Shown one piece after another: positions 29,625 through 34,157 of a stretch of DNA of 64,000 nt (position 1 is its first letter; every line of letters starts with the position of its first letter). Below the pieces are notes generated by a model. It made no database searches, was not told the origin of the DNA, and saw only the letters and a program-made list of their open reading frames with translations. Position numbers and translations under genes: made by a program. The DNA is taken from NCBI RefSeq assembly GCF_000374105.1, contig NZ_KB893651.1, positions 637,472 to 701,471 of the forward strand, read 5' to 3'. The DNA is from Kangiella aquimarina DSM 16071. GTDB taxonomy: Bacteria > Pseudomonadota > Gammaproteobacteria > Enterobacterales > Kangiellaceae.

Positions 29625-31529
29625 ATGTCGGTAGCGGCTGAAAAACAAACACATTCATTTCAAACAGAAGTTAAACAGTTATTACACCTGATGGTGCATT
29701 CTTTGTATTCCAACAAAGAAATTTTCCTGCGTGAGCTAATTTCAAACGCGGCTGACGCCGCTGACAAGCTGCGCTTTAAGGCATTGGATGATGCCAGCCT
29801 GTTAGCAGATGATCCAGAGCTTCGAATCCGCATTACTGCTGATAAAGATGCCAAGACCCTAACCATTTCCGATAATGGTATAGGTATGACCGAAGAAGAG
29901 GTCATTGCTCATCTTGGAACGATTGCAAAATCGGGTACTGCTGACTTTTTAAGCAAGCTAACCGGTGATAAAAAGAAAGATTCAAAACTGATTGGTCAGT
30001 TTGGCGTGGGTTTTTATTCTGCCTTTATCGTTGCTGATAAAGTGACTGTCGTGACGCGTGGCGCGGGTGTTGCTGCTGATCAGGCTGTGATCTGGGAATC
30101 TGCGGGAGATGGTGAATTTACCATTGAACCGACCACTAAAGATACTCGGGGCACTGATATTATTCTTCACCTGAAAGACGGTGAGGAAGAGTTCCTTGAG
30201 GATTACCGCCTACGCAACATTATCGGCAAGTATTCTGACCATATTTCGCTGCCTGTTGAGATGCACAAAATGCATCATGGGGAGGACAAAGATAAGCCAC
30301 AAGAGCCAGAGTTTGAAGCCGTCAACAAGGCAACTGCCTTGTGGACTCGTCCTAAGCCAGAAATCACTGATGAAGAATATCAGGAATTTTACAAGCATGT
30401 TGCGCATGACTTTCAGGATGCCTTGACCTGGAGTCACAATCAGGTAGAGGGTAAACAGGAATATACTAGCTTGCTATACATTCCGGCGAAAGCACCTTTC
30501 GACATGTGGAACCGCGATCGTGTTCGCGGTGTAAAGCTTTATGTGCAGCGCGTTTTCATTATGGACGATGCTGAACAATTCCTGCCGGTCTATTTGCGTT
30601 TTGTGCGTGGTCTGATTGATTCCAATGATTTGCCATTGAACGTATCGCGCGAAATTCTGCAGGACAGCTCAGTGACTCGATCCTTACGTTCAGCAACCGT
30701 CAGCCGTGTGTTGAAAATGCTTGAGCAGTTAGCCAAAAAAGACCTGGAAAAGTATCAGCGGTTCTGGAATGAATTTGGCCAAGTCTTGAAGGAAGGTCCG
30801 GGCGAAGATTTTGCCAACAAGGAAAAGATTGCAGGACTATTCCGCTTCAGCTCAACCCACACAGACAGCAAGGAACAAACCGTTTCTCTGGATGATTACA
30901 TTGAGCGTATGAAGCCCGAGCAAGACAAGATTTATTATATTGCGACCGACAGCTTCCTCGCAGCTAAGAACAGCCCGCACCTGGAAATCTTCCGCAAGAA
31001 AGGTATCGAAGTTCTATTGATGCATGATCGCATCGATGAATGGACGGTGTCGCACTTGCAGGAATATAAAGGCAAGCAATTTGTATCTGTTACCCAGGGT
31101 TCATTGGATTTAGGTAACCTTGAAGATGCAGAGGACAAAAAAGCTCAAGAGCAGGCGTCCAAAGAACATGAAGATTTAGTCAATCGTGTAAAAGACGTAT
31201 TAGGTGATAAAGTAGCTGATGTTCGAATTACCTTACGCCTGACCAACACGCCAGCATGTATCGTAGCGGGTGAGGGCGATATGCCACTGCAAATCGTTAA
31301 AATGATGCAGGCAGCAGGCCAGCCAGTGCCAGACGTTAAGCCTGTGTTTGAACTCAACCCTGAACATGCTTTGATTCAGTTAGTTGAAAAAGAACAGGAT
31401 CAAGACCAGTTCAACGAATGGGTAGACGTATTATTCGACCAGGCGCAGCTTGCTGAAGCAGGGCAACTAGAAGACCCCGCCAGCTTTGCCGCCAAACTCA
31501 ACAAGCTGTTATTGAAATTGGCGAACTAG
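29625..31529 (+). CDS. htpG: Hsp90-family chaperone HtpG
   Basis: Cytosolic ATP-dependent chaperone, 634 aa (E. coli 624). The GHKL ATPase domain is at the N-terminus: [41 protein letters not shown] and [15 protein letters not shown]. The middle domain contains [14 protein letters not shown] and [11 protein letters not shown] with the catalytic-loop Arg. The C-terminal dimerisation domain follows. The N-terminus reads [16 protein letters not shown]-like, standard for HtpG. A sigma32-type promoter lies upstream and a rho-independent terminator downstream, so it is monocistronic. Confidence 0.97.
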
Positions 31530-31550
31530 CATCATCAATGCTTGAAATTA

Positions 31551-31576
31551 AAAGCCCGCATATGCGGGCTTTTTTG
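31551..31576 (+). terminator. Terminator of htpG
   Basis: AAGCCCGCATATGCGGGCTT hairpin with flanking A and T tracts; same hairpin as after tRNA-Ser. Confidence 0.92.
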
Positions 31577-31587
31577 TAATCGATATT

Positions 31588-31848
31588 TTGAGCAAGATAT
31601 CGATATTGGGCAAACTGTTCTTATTATTGTCGAATACCGGTATCTCGATACTGCTTTTTATTGGTTCCAATAAAGATTACTCTCTGTTTTATAAAGAAAT
31701 TAAGAATATCCCCTTTGTGATTAGGAGACCGGCTAATCCTCGAAATGCGACCGCGCGAAGAGCTAATGGTGACCAGGAAATCGAAACTTGTAAAAAAAGA
31801 TCAATGATAATAAAGTCTTACAAACAAATTCGTATCATAAAATGTTAG
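31588..31848 (+). CDS. Doubtful small ORF before the cassette pair
   Basis: An 86-codon frame from a TTG start, with a hydrophobic N-terminus (LGKLFLLLSNTGISILLFIG) and a basic, low-complexity C-terminus. There is no convincing ribosome site, and the stop lies inside the cassette boundary GTTAGGC. It could be a remnant of a gene truncated by cassette insertion or simply non-coding. Outside this frame, 31577-31854 holds no other feature. Confidence 0.2.
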   Translation: MSKISILGKLFLLLSNTGISILLFIGSNKDYSLFYKEIKNIPFVIRRPANPRNATARRANGDQEIETCKKRSMIIKSYKQIRIIKC

Positions 31849-31850
31849 GC
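31844..31850 (+). other. Cassette boundary core site GTTAGGC (R')
   Basis: GTTAGGC is the canonical integron core site (GTTRRRY) where cassettes join. It lies 4 nt before the ATG of the SUKH gene, and its exact reverse complement GCCTAAC occurs 2 nt after that gene's stop codon. Confidence 0.65.
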
Positions 31851-31854
31851 GAAA

Positions 31855-32385
31855 ATGAAGATCGAAGACATCAGAAGAATGGAAAGCGCTCTGAATGTAA
31901 AACTACCTTCGGACTTTGTTGACTTCATGATTTCAGAAAGAAATTATGATGCTATTGATGAAGTAAGTGTTTTTAATGATGCAAATACTATTATCGAAGC
32001 AACGATTGCTTATAGGCAGGGCAAATGGAATCAACAGTGGTCCATGCAGCTTGTTTATATCGGTGATGAATCTGATGCATGTCCCTATGCGCTTGACTGT
32101 ATCTCGGGTGAGCTAAAAAGGCTAGATCATGGAAGTATTGAAATTAAACCTTTAGAGACCTTCAGATCGTTCCAAGAGTTTCTTACTAATAGATACAATG
32201 ACTACCAGGAATATCTTGAAAGTGAAAATGCTCCTCCATTAACTGGATTTGCAAAATTACGAAGTGACTTGGTCTTCAACTTGCGGTGTTATGGCCCTGT
32301 AATGGTTGCACTATTAATTTTCTTCGTTGTCTTACCAACGATAGCTTACTCTATAAGGGAGTTATTTAGATGGATAACCGGGTAG
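31855..32385 (+). CDS. SMI1/KNR4 (SUKH) family protein with C-terminal membrane helix, cassette gene
   Basis: A 176-aa protein. The N-terminal SUKH fold is suggested by MESALNVKLPSDFVDFM and VYIGDESDACPYALDCISGELKRLDHG, the pattern of SMI1/KNR4 domains (~8-120). A hydrophobic helix MVALLIFFVVLPTIAYSI (~148-165) near the C-terminus would anchor it in the inner membrane. SUKH proteins are common immunity proteins against contact-dependent or polymorphic toxins and are frequent in integron cassettes (known). No partner toxin is in the window. The start follows GTTAGGC by 4 nt, with AGG in the core acting as ribosome site, and the stop is followed by an attC-like site. Base composition is visibly more AT-rich than the neighbours. 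Confidence 0.65.
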   Translation: MKIEDIRRMESALNVKLPSDFVDFMISERNYDAIDEVSVFNDANTIIEATIAYRQGKWNQQWSMQLVYIGDESDACPYALDCISGELKRLDHGSIEIKPLETFRSFQEFLTNRYNDYQEYLESENAPPLTGFAKLRSDLVFNLRCYGPVMVALLIFFVVLPTIAYSIRELFRWITG

Positions 32386-32386
32386 C

Positions 32387-32443
32387 GCCTAACAAGACCA
32401 TGTTGCTGACTCGGTTCGCTCACCGCATATGCCGGCGTTATGA
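32387..32443 (+). other. attC-like recombination site 1
   Basis: 57 bp from GCCTAAC (R'', 32387-32393) to GTTATGA (R', 32437-32443), the minimum length known for attC. Inner CATG and CATATG are loosely complementary, and CGGT/ACCG can cap the hairpin. It lies between the SUKH stop and the next gene's start. Confidence 0.6.
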
Positions 32444-32457
32444 TTAGAGAGAACACT

Positions 32458-33114
32458 ATGAAATTAATATTAATATTCACTGGATTTATATTCCTATCCG
32501 CCAATGCTTTAGCCAATGAAGAAAGCTTCATGGAAGAGTATTACGATAAACAAGATGGTGATTTAATTAACGTTATGTCACCCTGTGACCCTGGCTGTCA
32601 TGTTGAAATAGAGATTGGAAATAATGTTTTTTCTAGTATAACGAGCGGAATTGGCTGGGAAAGATTGTACGAGCTAGAAGATGAGGAAGATAGCTCCATA
32701 ACCTTAAATTATTCTTTTGAAAAAGGTGTTTATGTAGTTCATTCCAGTACTAACACAATTTTCAGTCTTAATGGAAAGTTGGAGCATCATCCAATCGACT
32801 TTGCATTAAGCAATTGTTTCTCCAAGCCTTCAGGGCAAACAACGATGGGTATGGTAGCTTGTTTGAGGGGAGCAGAAGAAACTTGGGATGTTGAATTAAA
32901 TAGAATATATGAAGATTTAGGTGGTGCAAACAACTCACTTTTAAAATCTACTCAGCTAGCTTGGATATCATATCGTGACTCCCAGTATAGTTTGTTCAAT
33001 TCGTGGCTTGACTCTAAGCAAGGCTCGAAATGGATTTACGCCATATCAAAAGGGCGAGTGCTTCTAATTAGGCAACAAGTTGAGCATTTGCAATCTTTTT
33101 ACACGGGTTATTAA
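32458..33114 (+). CDS. Secreted LprI/DUF1311-like protein, cassette gene
   Basis: A 218-aa protein from ATG 32458; an in-frame ATG at 32440 overlaps the core site and would spoil the signal peptide. Signal MKLILIFTGFIFLSANALA. The N-terminal half contains CDPGCHVEIEIG. The C-terminal half (~115-215) has the LprI pattern: conserved Cys (SNCFSKP, MVACLRG), WDVELNRIYEDL, then LKSTQLAWISYRDSQYSLF. LprI-type proteins inhibit lysozyme in mycobacteria; many relatives are uncharacterised. Start near GTTATGA and stop next to TCATAAC, its reverse complement, mark a second cassette. Confidence 0.7.
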   Translation: MKLILIFTGFIFLSANALANEESFMEEYYDKQDGDLINVMSPCDPGCHVEIEIGNNVFSSITSGIGWERLYELEDEEDSSITLNYSFEKGVYVVHSSTNTIFSLNGKLEHHPIDFALSNCFSKPSGQTTMGMVACLRGAEETWDVELNRIYEDLGGANNSLLKSTQLAWISYRDSQYSLFNSWLDSKQGSKWIYAISKGRVLLIRQQVEHLQSFYTGY

Positions 33115-33117
33115 GCT

Positions 33118-33165
33118 TCATAACAAATTAGACAAATGGCGCCGTAACCGATGCCTATGTTAAAG
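33118..33165 (+). other. attC-like site 2 (left half clear, right end uncertain)
   Basis: TCATAAC (33118-33124), 3 nt after the stop, is the exact reverse complement of GTTATGA at 32437. A possible R' is GTTAAAG (33159-33165), giving a short 48-bp site; a longer site ending near CGTTAT at 33241 is an alternative, with an internal TTCTAGC/GCTAGAA hairpin (33201-33231). Confidence 0.4.
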
Positions 33166-33254
33166 GCCTTATATAAATTGCGTCTCGTATGCACATATGT
33201 TTCTAGCTTACCATGTATTGAATTGCTAGAATCTCTTTAACGTTATTTTGATTT

Positions 33255-33275
33255 ACCGCCTTTGGCGGTTTTTTT
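33255..33275 (+). terminator. Terminator before the VanZ-like gene
   Basis: ACCGCCTTTGGCGGT followed by T7. The next ATG comes immediately after the T run. Confidence 0.8.
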
Positions 33276-33629
33276 ATGGTTCAGTTTTTAAACAGTCGAT
33301 TATTTAAAGTGTTGTTTGTGATTGCTTGTTTGGCGATTTTTGCGATGTCGTTGATGCCAGGGAAGCAGTTGCCGAAGGATTTACCTTGGGACAAGGCTTT
33401 GCATTTTATTGGTTACGCAGGTTTGGCGTTTCTGGCACGGATGGGTTCGAAGAAGCATCCAAGCTGGCAGATTGTGATTGGCTGTATCCTTTTTTCCCTT
33501 CTTATTGAGTTTCTACAGCAATTTATACCGAATCGTGGTTTTGAGTGGCTGGATCTACTAGCTAATACGTTAGGAGTTTTGACTGGAGTGCTGCTAGGTA
33601 AGGTGATGAAACCTTACCTAAAGCAATAG
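33276..33629 (+). CDS. VanZ-like membrane protein
   Basis: A 117-aa protein with four predicted helices (KVLFVIACLAIFAMSLM, KALHFIGYAGLAFLARM, IVIGCILFSLLIEFLQQF, LLANTLGVLTGVLLGKV). DKALHFIGYAGLAF and EFLQQFIPNRGFEWLDLLANTLGV are the hallmarks of the VanZ family. Function is not established outside glycopeptide resistance. The ATG abuts the T tract of a terminator and has no ribosome site, so initiation is puzzling; a GTG at 33309 is a weak alternative. It converges on the next gene, with 3 bp between stops. Confidence 0.8.
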   Translation: MVQFLNSRLFKVLFVIACLAIFAMSLMPGKQLPKDLPWDKALHFIGYAGLAFLARMGSKKHPSWQIVIGCILFSLLIEFLQQFIPNRGFEWLDLLANTLGVLTGVLLGKVMKPYLKQ

Positions 33630-33632
33630 AGC

Positions 33633-34157
33633 TTACTCTACAAAAGGCGCGTAGCCGCAATGGAGCTGTACACCGGTCAAGATATCAGACTTGTTTCCAG
33701 AGCCTGCATCAAAGTGTAATCGTACCCCTGTAGCCATTTCCCCTGCAGGGCAATTAACACGCTGTTTCCATGTATCGCAATTGGGACGCTTAAAGGTTTC
33801 TACCTGAGTATTGCCGTTACCGTCTTTACCAAATAAGGTATAACCTTTTACCCTTCCTGAGTTTGAGTGGCATACCCGAATCCCAGTTATATACAAACCA
33901 ACCTCTACTTTTCCCTTGGAGCCTGATGGGGCGGAGCCGATGCATCTTTCAATTGTGTCTGGCCATGTTGTTCTAAAGCCCACCTGTACCCAGCAGGGCT
34001 TGTCATACTTTTCCTTGACCCAGAATGAAGTCATATTATTGGTAAAGCCGGGTTTTTGATGGTCTGACTGGATGTTACCTGCATCGCCTGAGACTGGTGT
34101 GATAGCAAAACTGGTTAGTGGTAACAGAGAAAAAATTAGTGCTAATAGTGTTTTCAT
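33633..34157 (-). CDS. Hypothetical secreted disulfide-rich protein
   Basis: A 174-aa protein with signal peptide MKTLLALIFSLLPLTSFA. The mature part has six Cys (DKPCWVQ, ERCIGSA, IRVCHSN, RPNCDTW, RVNCPAG, QLHCGYA) and Gly/Thr-rich beta strands. The end, CPAGEMATGVRLHFDAGSGN...LTGVQLHC, faintly recalls beta-prism repeats of vitelline-membrane-like (VMO-I) domains, but this is only a resemblance. GGAAGGAAGGAA before the ATG is a strong ribosome site. A CCGATTG-N4-CAATCGG dyad (34198-34215) lies ~40 bp upstream and could be an operator. Confidence 0.7.
   Translation of the reverse strand: MKTLLALIFSLLPLTSFAITPVSGDAGNIQSDHQKPGFTNNMTSFWVKEKYDKPCWVQVGFRTTWPDTIERCIGSAPSGSKGKVEVGLYITGIRVCHSNSGRVKGYTLFGKDGNGNTQVETFKRPNCDTWKQRVNCPAGEMATGVRLHFDAGSGNKSDILTGVQLHCGYAPFVE

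Follow-up and report, generated by a model that had tools for sequence, protein, structure and literature searches.

The 64,000-nucleotide window of the Kangiella aquimarina DSM 16071 genome analysed here (the whole stretch from 637,472 to 701,471 of contig NZ_KB893651.1, read on the forward strand) carries two integron-type gene cassettes between htpG and a vanZ-like gene, placed directly behind a leader that is homologous to the attI recombination sites of Kangiella integrons (Table 1). The first cassette encodes a protein with a SUKH (SMI1/KNR4) domain and the second a protein with an LprI domain. An original prediction made from the sequence alone had described this pair as cassettes without an integrase, delimited by four short complementary motifs. 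All four motifs lie where they were placed and the 57-bp site between the genes is confirmed at 32387-32443, with the correction that the SUKH reading frame, which begins with the ATG at 31855 and has its stop codon at 32383-32385, is separated from GCCTAAC (32387-32393) by 1 nt instead of 2 nt.

Table 1. Features of the htpG-vanZ interval, in window coordinates; flanking genes are given last.
Feature	Position	Strand	Basis
Solo attI, type B, ending at core G^TTA	31741-31847	+	Homology to intI-adjacent attI sites of Kangiella integrons
Core site G^TTAGGC opening cassette 1	31844-31850	+	8/8 complementary to CGCCTAAC at 32386-32393
Cassette 1 gene, SUKH-1 (SMI1/KNR4)-like, 176 aa	31855-32385	+	Pfam PF09346
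attC of cassette 1	32386-32443	+	Covariance model R1 and bottom-strand fold
Cassette 2 gene, LprI-domain protein, signal-peptide-like start	32458-33114	+	Pfam PF07007
Degenerate or truncated attC of cassette 2 (TCATAAC...GTTAAAG)	33117-33165	+	R1 12.9 bits; R'' present, stem weak
htpG, left neighbour fixing the locus in congeners	29625-31529	+	Open reading frame (ORF); aligned in 16 congener loci
vanZ-like gene, right neighbour	33276-33629	+	Pfam PF04892, 55.3 bits; in 19/19 congeners

Cassette 1 opens with G^TTAGGCG (G at 31844) and closes with CGCCTAAC, and the two ends are complementary at 8/8 positions with the flanking base included. A perfect closing half of this kind (R''), followed by A and lying no more than 1.7 kb away, is found for 3 of the 261 GTTA sites of the window. 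As the search for attC sites by plain fold energy proved too noisy, a covariance model (R1) was used in its place, built from 18 attC sites at other Kangiella loci with both window sites excluded. In a scan of the 64 kb window, the site closing cassette 1 is the top match of this model with 34.5 bits and E=1.3e-6, followed by a match with E=0.52, and its bottom strand folds under constraint at -10.2 kcal/mol; an Rfam search returned sub-threshold matches only. The last 7 nt of this attC, G^TTATGA (32437-32443), are also the starting core of cassette 2. The protein encoded by cassette 1 matches Pfam SMI1_KNR4 with 25.6 bits, barely over the cut-off of 25.4, and ends in a hydrophobic stretch at its C-terminus; relatives of it were not found in plasmids or genome_contigs.

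Cassette 2 extends from the shared GTTATGA to TCATAAC at 33118-33124, 3 nt past the stop at 33114, with a complementarity of 7/8. Its reading frame is also open from an ATG at 32440, and the product matches its Pfam family with 40.9 bits (cut-off 22). The attC of this cassette scores below a chance match of R1 at 21115-21093, which indicates that the site is degenerate or cut, and the covariance-model check proposed with the original prediction is thus significant for the first attC but not for the second. Both genes are AT-rich as predicted, with a G+C content of 0.40 for cassette 1 and 0.37 for cassette 2 versus 0.445 for the window. AlphaFold2 models of the SUKH and LprI-like proteins are poor (mean predicted local distance difference test scores of 49.8 and 34.6). 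The suggestion that the cargo forms a defence or immunity pair was read from the domain names and such a role is not established for either cassette, as PADLOC returns a weak match to PDC-M40A for the SUKH protein (E=0.0016) and no match for the LprI-like protein.

An integrase is present elsewhere in the genome. A search for the integron integrase (IntI) with TIGR02249 and a cut-off of 265 bits identifies a full intI at C1:342508-343455 with 400 bits, on a different contig from the window, as the sole match over the cut-off. The claim that there is no integrase therefore holds beside the cassettes, which by location form a cluster of attC sites lacking integron-integrases (CALIN), but does not extend to the genome. 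The resident intI adjoins comM and its cassette array is divergent from it. This array holds a second SUKH cassette (C1:339870-340412) that is 95% identical to the window copy over 543 nt. The homologous stretch opens 3 nt ahead of the start codon and closes with CCTAACA, 9 nt past the stop, whereas the attC and the flanking DNA are different. The LprI-like gene is present as a single copy in this genome. Cassette 1 thus combines core and R'' bounds, a structured attC at its 3′ end and a copy in an integron array, and the R'' pairs, the score of the first attC and the near-identical resident cassette bear out the identification of two integron cassettes.

The acceptor of this pair can be recognized from the leader in front of cassette 1. 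In a comparison set of 20 Kangiella genomes, comprising that of K. aquimarina (G000) and 19 congeners, the leader is 83% identical over 110 nt to the attI at the comM locus of G003 and in G010, G004, G005 and G017 it has a homologue in the stretch that separates intI from the first cassette. R2, a sequence profile of leader copies with the window excluded from training, matches 31774-31847 with 61.8 bits and E=1.8e-17. The homology to intI-adjacent attI ends at G^TT with the first cassette directly at the core, and no intI match occurs in 31001-34000 of the window, so that the leader is a solo attI and not the attI of a complete integron, in which intI adjoins the site. The window leader has no match in plasmids, and its 21-nt core has none in viral contigs. 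The core of the Kangiella attI, ATAATAAAATG^TTA (31834-31847 in the window, and in the copies), equals the published minimal attI2 core AATAAAATGTTRRRY. A candidate cassette promoter in the leader consists of weak boxes (TTGTAA-N17-TAAAGT), in agreement with the predicted lack of a visible promoter, but the insertion point closes an attI region, in which cassette promoters (Pc) are expected, and by analogy with attI2 of class 2 integrons the region may hold one. In two species, the promoter-like half of the leader also occurs without a core, ahead of the same conserved gene in each (G000 C1:485180 and G019 C1:2540208), suggesting that part of the repeat may act as an ordinary promoter.

The gap between htpG and vanZ is about 34-161 bp in 12 congeners and holds 1.2-4.4 kb of other DNA in six, and in a seventh (G003) other genes lie before vanZ and the contig then ends. 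The left flanks of G019 and G013 match the window, leader included, as far as 31847, within the first nucleotides of cassette 1, and are followed by different cassettes with attC sites. With the same leader and different cassettes, the acceptor is thus conserved and the cargo variable. Neither the SUKH gene product nor the LprI-like protein is found in the 19 congeners, which supports a recent gain, and the pattern expected of vertical inheritance is not seen. The secondary-site insertion offered in the original prediction is not a random one, given a leader that is homologous to genuine attI sites of the genus and is kept at htpG in two congeners with other genes behind it. The inserts of G008, G011, G016 and G018 (L058, L053, L057 and L056) contain no attC match; they are filled by 1.2-3.6 kb of seemingly non-cassette genes, and the htpG-vanZ interval is accordingly an insertion hotspot that is not limited to integrons.

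The window site belongs to a family of attI copies that is dispersed across the genus. With blastn, the leader recurs at different loci in 12 of the 20 genomes, and the homology of full copies ends at G^TTA. R2 yields 91 matches in 20/20 genomes, with uncertain placement for a few copies near contig ends, and 67 of these reach the core. Only 7 of the 67 stand beside comM, of which four have a full intI and the other three a stub or no intI at all. Genus-wide, R1 yields at least 89 attC matches, and among those listed, 29/67 core-reaching copies are followed on their own strand by an attC no more than 4 kb away, compared with 2/67 upstream or on the other strand, 1/24 for core-less copies and an estimated chance expectation of about 0.24 (67 x 4 kb x 89 sites over 2 x 50 Mb). 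The count of 29/67 is partly circular because some of these loci trained R1; when the training loci are left out, the fraction among the same matches is 18/54. Pairing with R'' provides a model-free and cleaner test than the R1-based count, and a perfect 8/8 R'' partner is found downstream of the copy's own core in 34/67 cases; across 200 permutations, such partners averaged 2.0 and never exceeded 7.

Four attI-type sites, the window site included, are found in the K. aquimarina genome beyond the comM integron. One is a decayed type B copy at C1:1137212. A type A copy, the type of the resident intI, adjoins an rpoD-like gene with 84% identity over 324 nt, reaching into the 5′ end of intI, and carries two cassettes. 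A second type A copy (86% over 118 nt) precedes a cassette with an 8/8 R'' partner and an attC that encodes an 866-aa AAA-type ATPase (C1:1592839-1595629; L135:340-3130), and this protein matches the candidate defence family PDC-S06 in PADLOC with 402 bits. Elsewhere in the same genome, a lone cassette with a 186-aa ORF (C1:1654510-1655171; L136:4511-5172) is bounded by GTTATATT and AATATAAC and has an attC. No attI-like leader was detected before this cassette (C1:1655111), which may be a true insertion of the attG type, in which IntI places a cassette into a genomic site.

The edges of the copies offer clues to their origin. In 14 copies, two of which lie beside an intact intI, the homology has a common abrupt left boundary, TTTGAC, some 235 bp ahead of the core. 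This edge adjoins the intI start codon, with DNA upstream of it that is unrelated among the 14. A second platform in G018 (C5; L138:5113-6750) retains about 151 residues of intI together with cassettes and an intact attI of type A, with 662 nt of homology that includes the truncated intI and with no match to comM in the surrounding 8.5 kb. This platform is possibly an intermediate towards a solo attI. A 334-aa ORF resembling a transposase associated with repetitive extragenic palindromic (REP) sequences adjoins it. The series from full intI through truncated intI and stub to no intI suggests that platforms were duplicated and subsequently lost intI, and the solo copies most likely derive from whole platforms that would have been duplicated in this way and whose intI decayed. 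In G004 (C1:47241-49347; L140), the order is attI-cassette-attC-truncated ORF-attI-cassette, and the second attI stands inside the array, after the truncated cassette ORF, where an attC is expected. A cassette of the delta-attI type, with the architecture seen in G004, is a possible second route to dispersed attI sites.

Taken together, the comparisons point to a two-cassette array at a solo attI, captured by an integrase acting in trans, as one instance of an arrangement found throughout the genus, and we assign this reading a probability of about 0.72. The site at htpG would be a copy of the attI region of a Kangiella integron that has no intI alongside, and the comM-locus integrase of the same genome, or an earlier Kangiella IntI, would act on it in trans. 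Folded attC sites on cassette circles would be joined by IntI to the terminal core G^TT of attI; the SUKH and LprI-like genes would thereby come to lie immediately behind it and could be expressed from a promoter in that region. With attI copies scattered over Kangiella chromosomes, many of them with short arrays, the integron would be spread over many addresses. Directly visible in the sequence are the bounds of the cassettes, the first attC, the homology of the leader to attI, the scatter of the copies, the SUKH cassette in common with the comM array and the intermediates with a truncated intI; trans action, promoter activity and the duplication route are inferred. The wider proposal of a distributed integron, in which the comM integrase, where kept, serves in trans a set of promoter-bearing solo attI sites with short arrays at many loci of the chromosome, stands at about even odds.

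Several observations weigh against the reading of a solo attI used in trans. About half of the core-reaching copies have no perfect R'' partner, 24/91 leader matches are core-less with at least some of them preceding genes that are not cassette-like, and no intI match is found in 11 of the 20 genomes carrying attI copies. At the window itself, the second attC reaches only 12.9 bits and E=0.86 with R1. The window attI is of type B and the attI of the resident intI is of type A, so that the resident IntI is no more than a putative user of the window attI. Together with the genomes lacking an intI match, this makes present-day activity putative as well.

Among the alternatives, the degenerate second attC also fits a relic of a complete integron that once stood beside htpG and lost its intI, with the cassettes inherited since then and no present exchange. 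This explanation shares platform decay with that of a solo attI used in trans and differs from it in the activity that followed; it fits with the lack of intI in the two congeners with this locus, G013 and G019, and with the retention of orthologous solo sites between species. However, these congeners lack both window genes, and the resident array holds an almost identical SUKH cassette; together, the two findings indicate exchange after the species split and render a relic unlikely. A different possibility is that IntI inserted the cassettes at a genomic look-alike of attI without attI descent (attG), the leader being a promoter repeat. Such insertions seem to occur, as the cassette at C1:1655111 stands at a G^TT without a detectable attI leader, and core-less leader-like promoters exist as well. 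The homology to intI-adjacent attI nevertheless covers about 235 bp, with the common left edge by the intI start in 14 copies, and extends over 324 nt, reaching into intI, at the rpoD-side copy and over 662 nt, truncated intI included, in G018, making an origin without attI descent quite improbable. Random attG insertion was rejected as the main explanation because the attI homology is extended and reaches intI.

That the two genes are not cassettes at all but ordinary accessory genes flanked by chance 7-mer complementarity is very hard to sustain. The second attC is indeed non-significant and chance complementary 8-mers occur at about 1% of GTTA sites, but the first attC is significant with an independently built model, the leader matches the attI profile at E=1.8e-17, and the SUKH cassette has a counterpart in the resident integron that is homologous in the cassette body only. 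For cassette 1, chance complementarity is refuted by these same three results.

The usual picture of an integron is a single platform with one attI and one promoter, in which later cassettes are silenced as the array grows. If a solo attI family is used as proposed, capture and expression would be spread over the chromosome in a different integron architecture, and many cassettes could occupy an expressed first position simultaneously. Dispersed attI sites would also account for where some orphan cassettes come from. By default, IntegronFinder 2 requires at least two attC sites for a CALIN and detects attI in class 1 only (PMC9024848), from which it follows that the Kangiella sites would be reported without attI or missed; by R1, the window locus has one significant and one degenerate attC against this default of two. 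Since common software ignores attI outside class 1 (PMC9024848), solo attI sites could be frequent yet unseen.

The window array resembles the CALINs of Cury et al. (IntegronFinder, PMC9024848) in having attC cassettes without intI alongside, and differs in that CALINs are defined without attI, whereas the Kangiella array has an attI copy ahead and its attI family recurs at many loci. In Xanthomonas, CALINs away from the canonical ilvD platform are reported in about half of the genomes and at several conserved loci; integrase-less arrays at conserved loci are the shared trait, and the accessible part of that account describes no attI copies at those loci (PMC12444791). Insertion at attG (Loot et al. 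2024, as represented in papers citing it) likewise places cassettes far from intI, but attG sites are described there as widespread and as neither attC nor attI, and the Kangiella sites are attI homologues. The delta-attI-type cassettes of class 1 and 2 integrons (PMC12901181) also contain attI pieces away from their usual place, with a minimal attI2 core identical to the main Kangiella core and an attC-ORF-attI architecture that is seen in G004. In those mobile integrons, the attI pieces replace the attC of a cassette, whereas the Kangiella copies are chromosomal acceptors at many loci. Class 2 integrons have their Pc promoters within attI, in the stretch that leads from the intI start codon to the first cassette (PMC5559693); that integron is a single platform on Tn7 (PMC5559693), in contrast to the dispersed attI copies of Kangiella with their putative promoters. 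Neither Kangiella integrons nor dispersed attI copies were found described in the open-licence literature, which is weak evidence of novelty. Cassettes, attC sites and CALINs are thus known already, and what is new, as far as the open-licence literature goes, is a dispersed attI family as acceptor sites.
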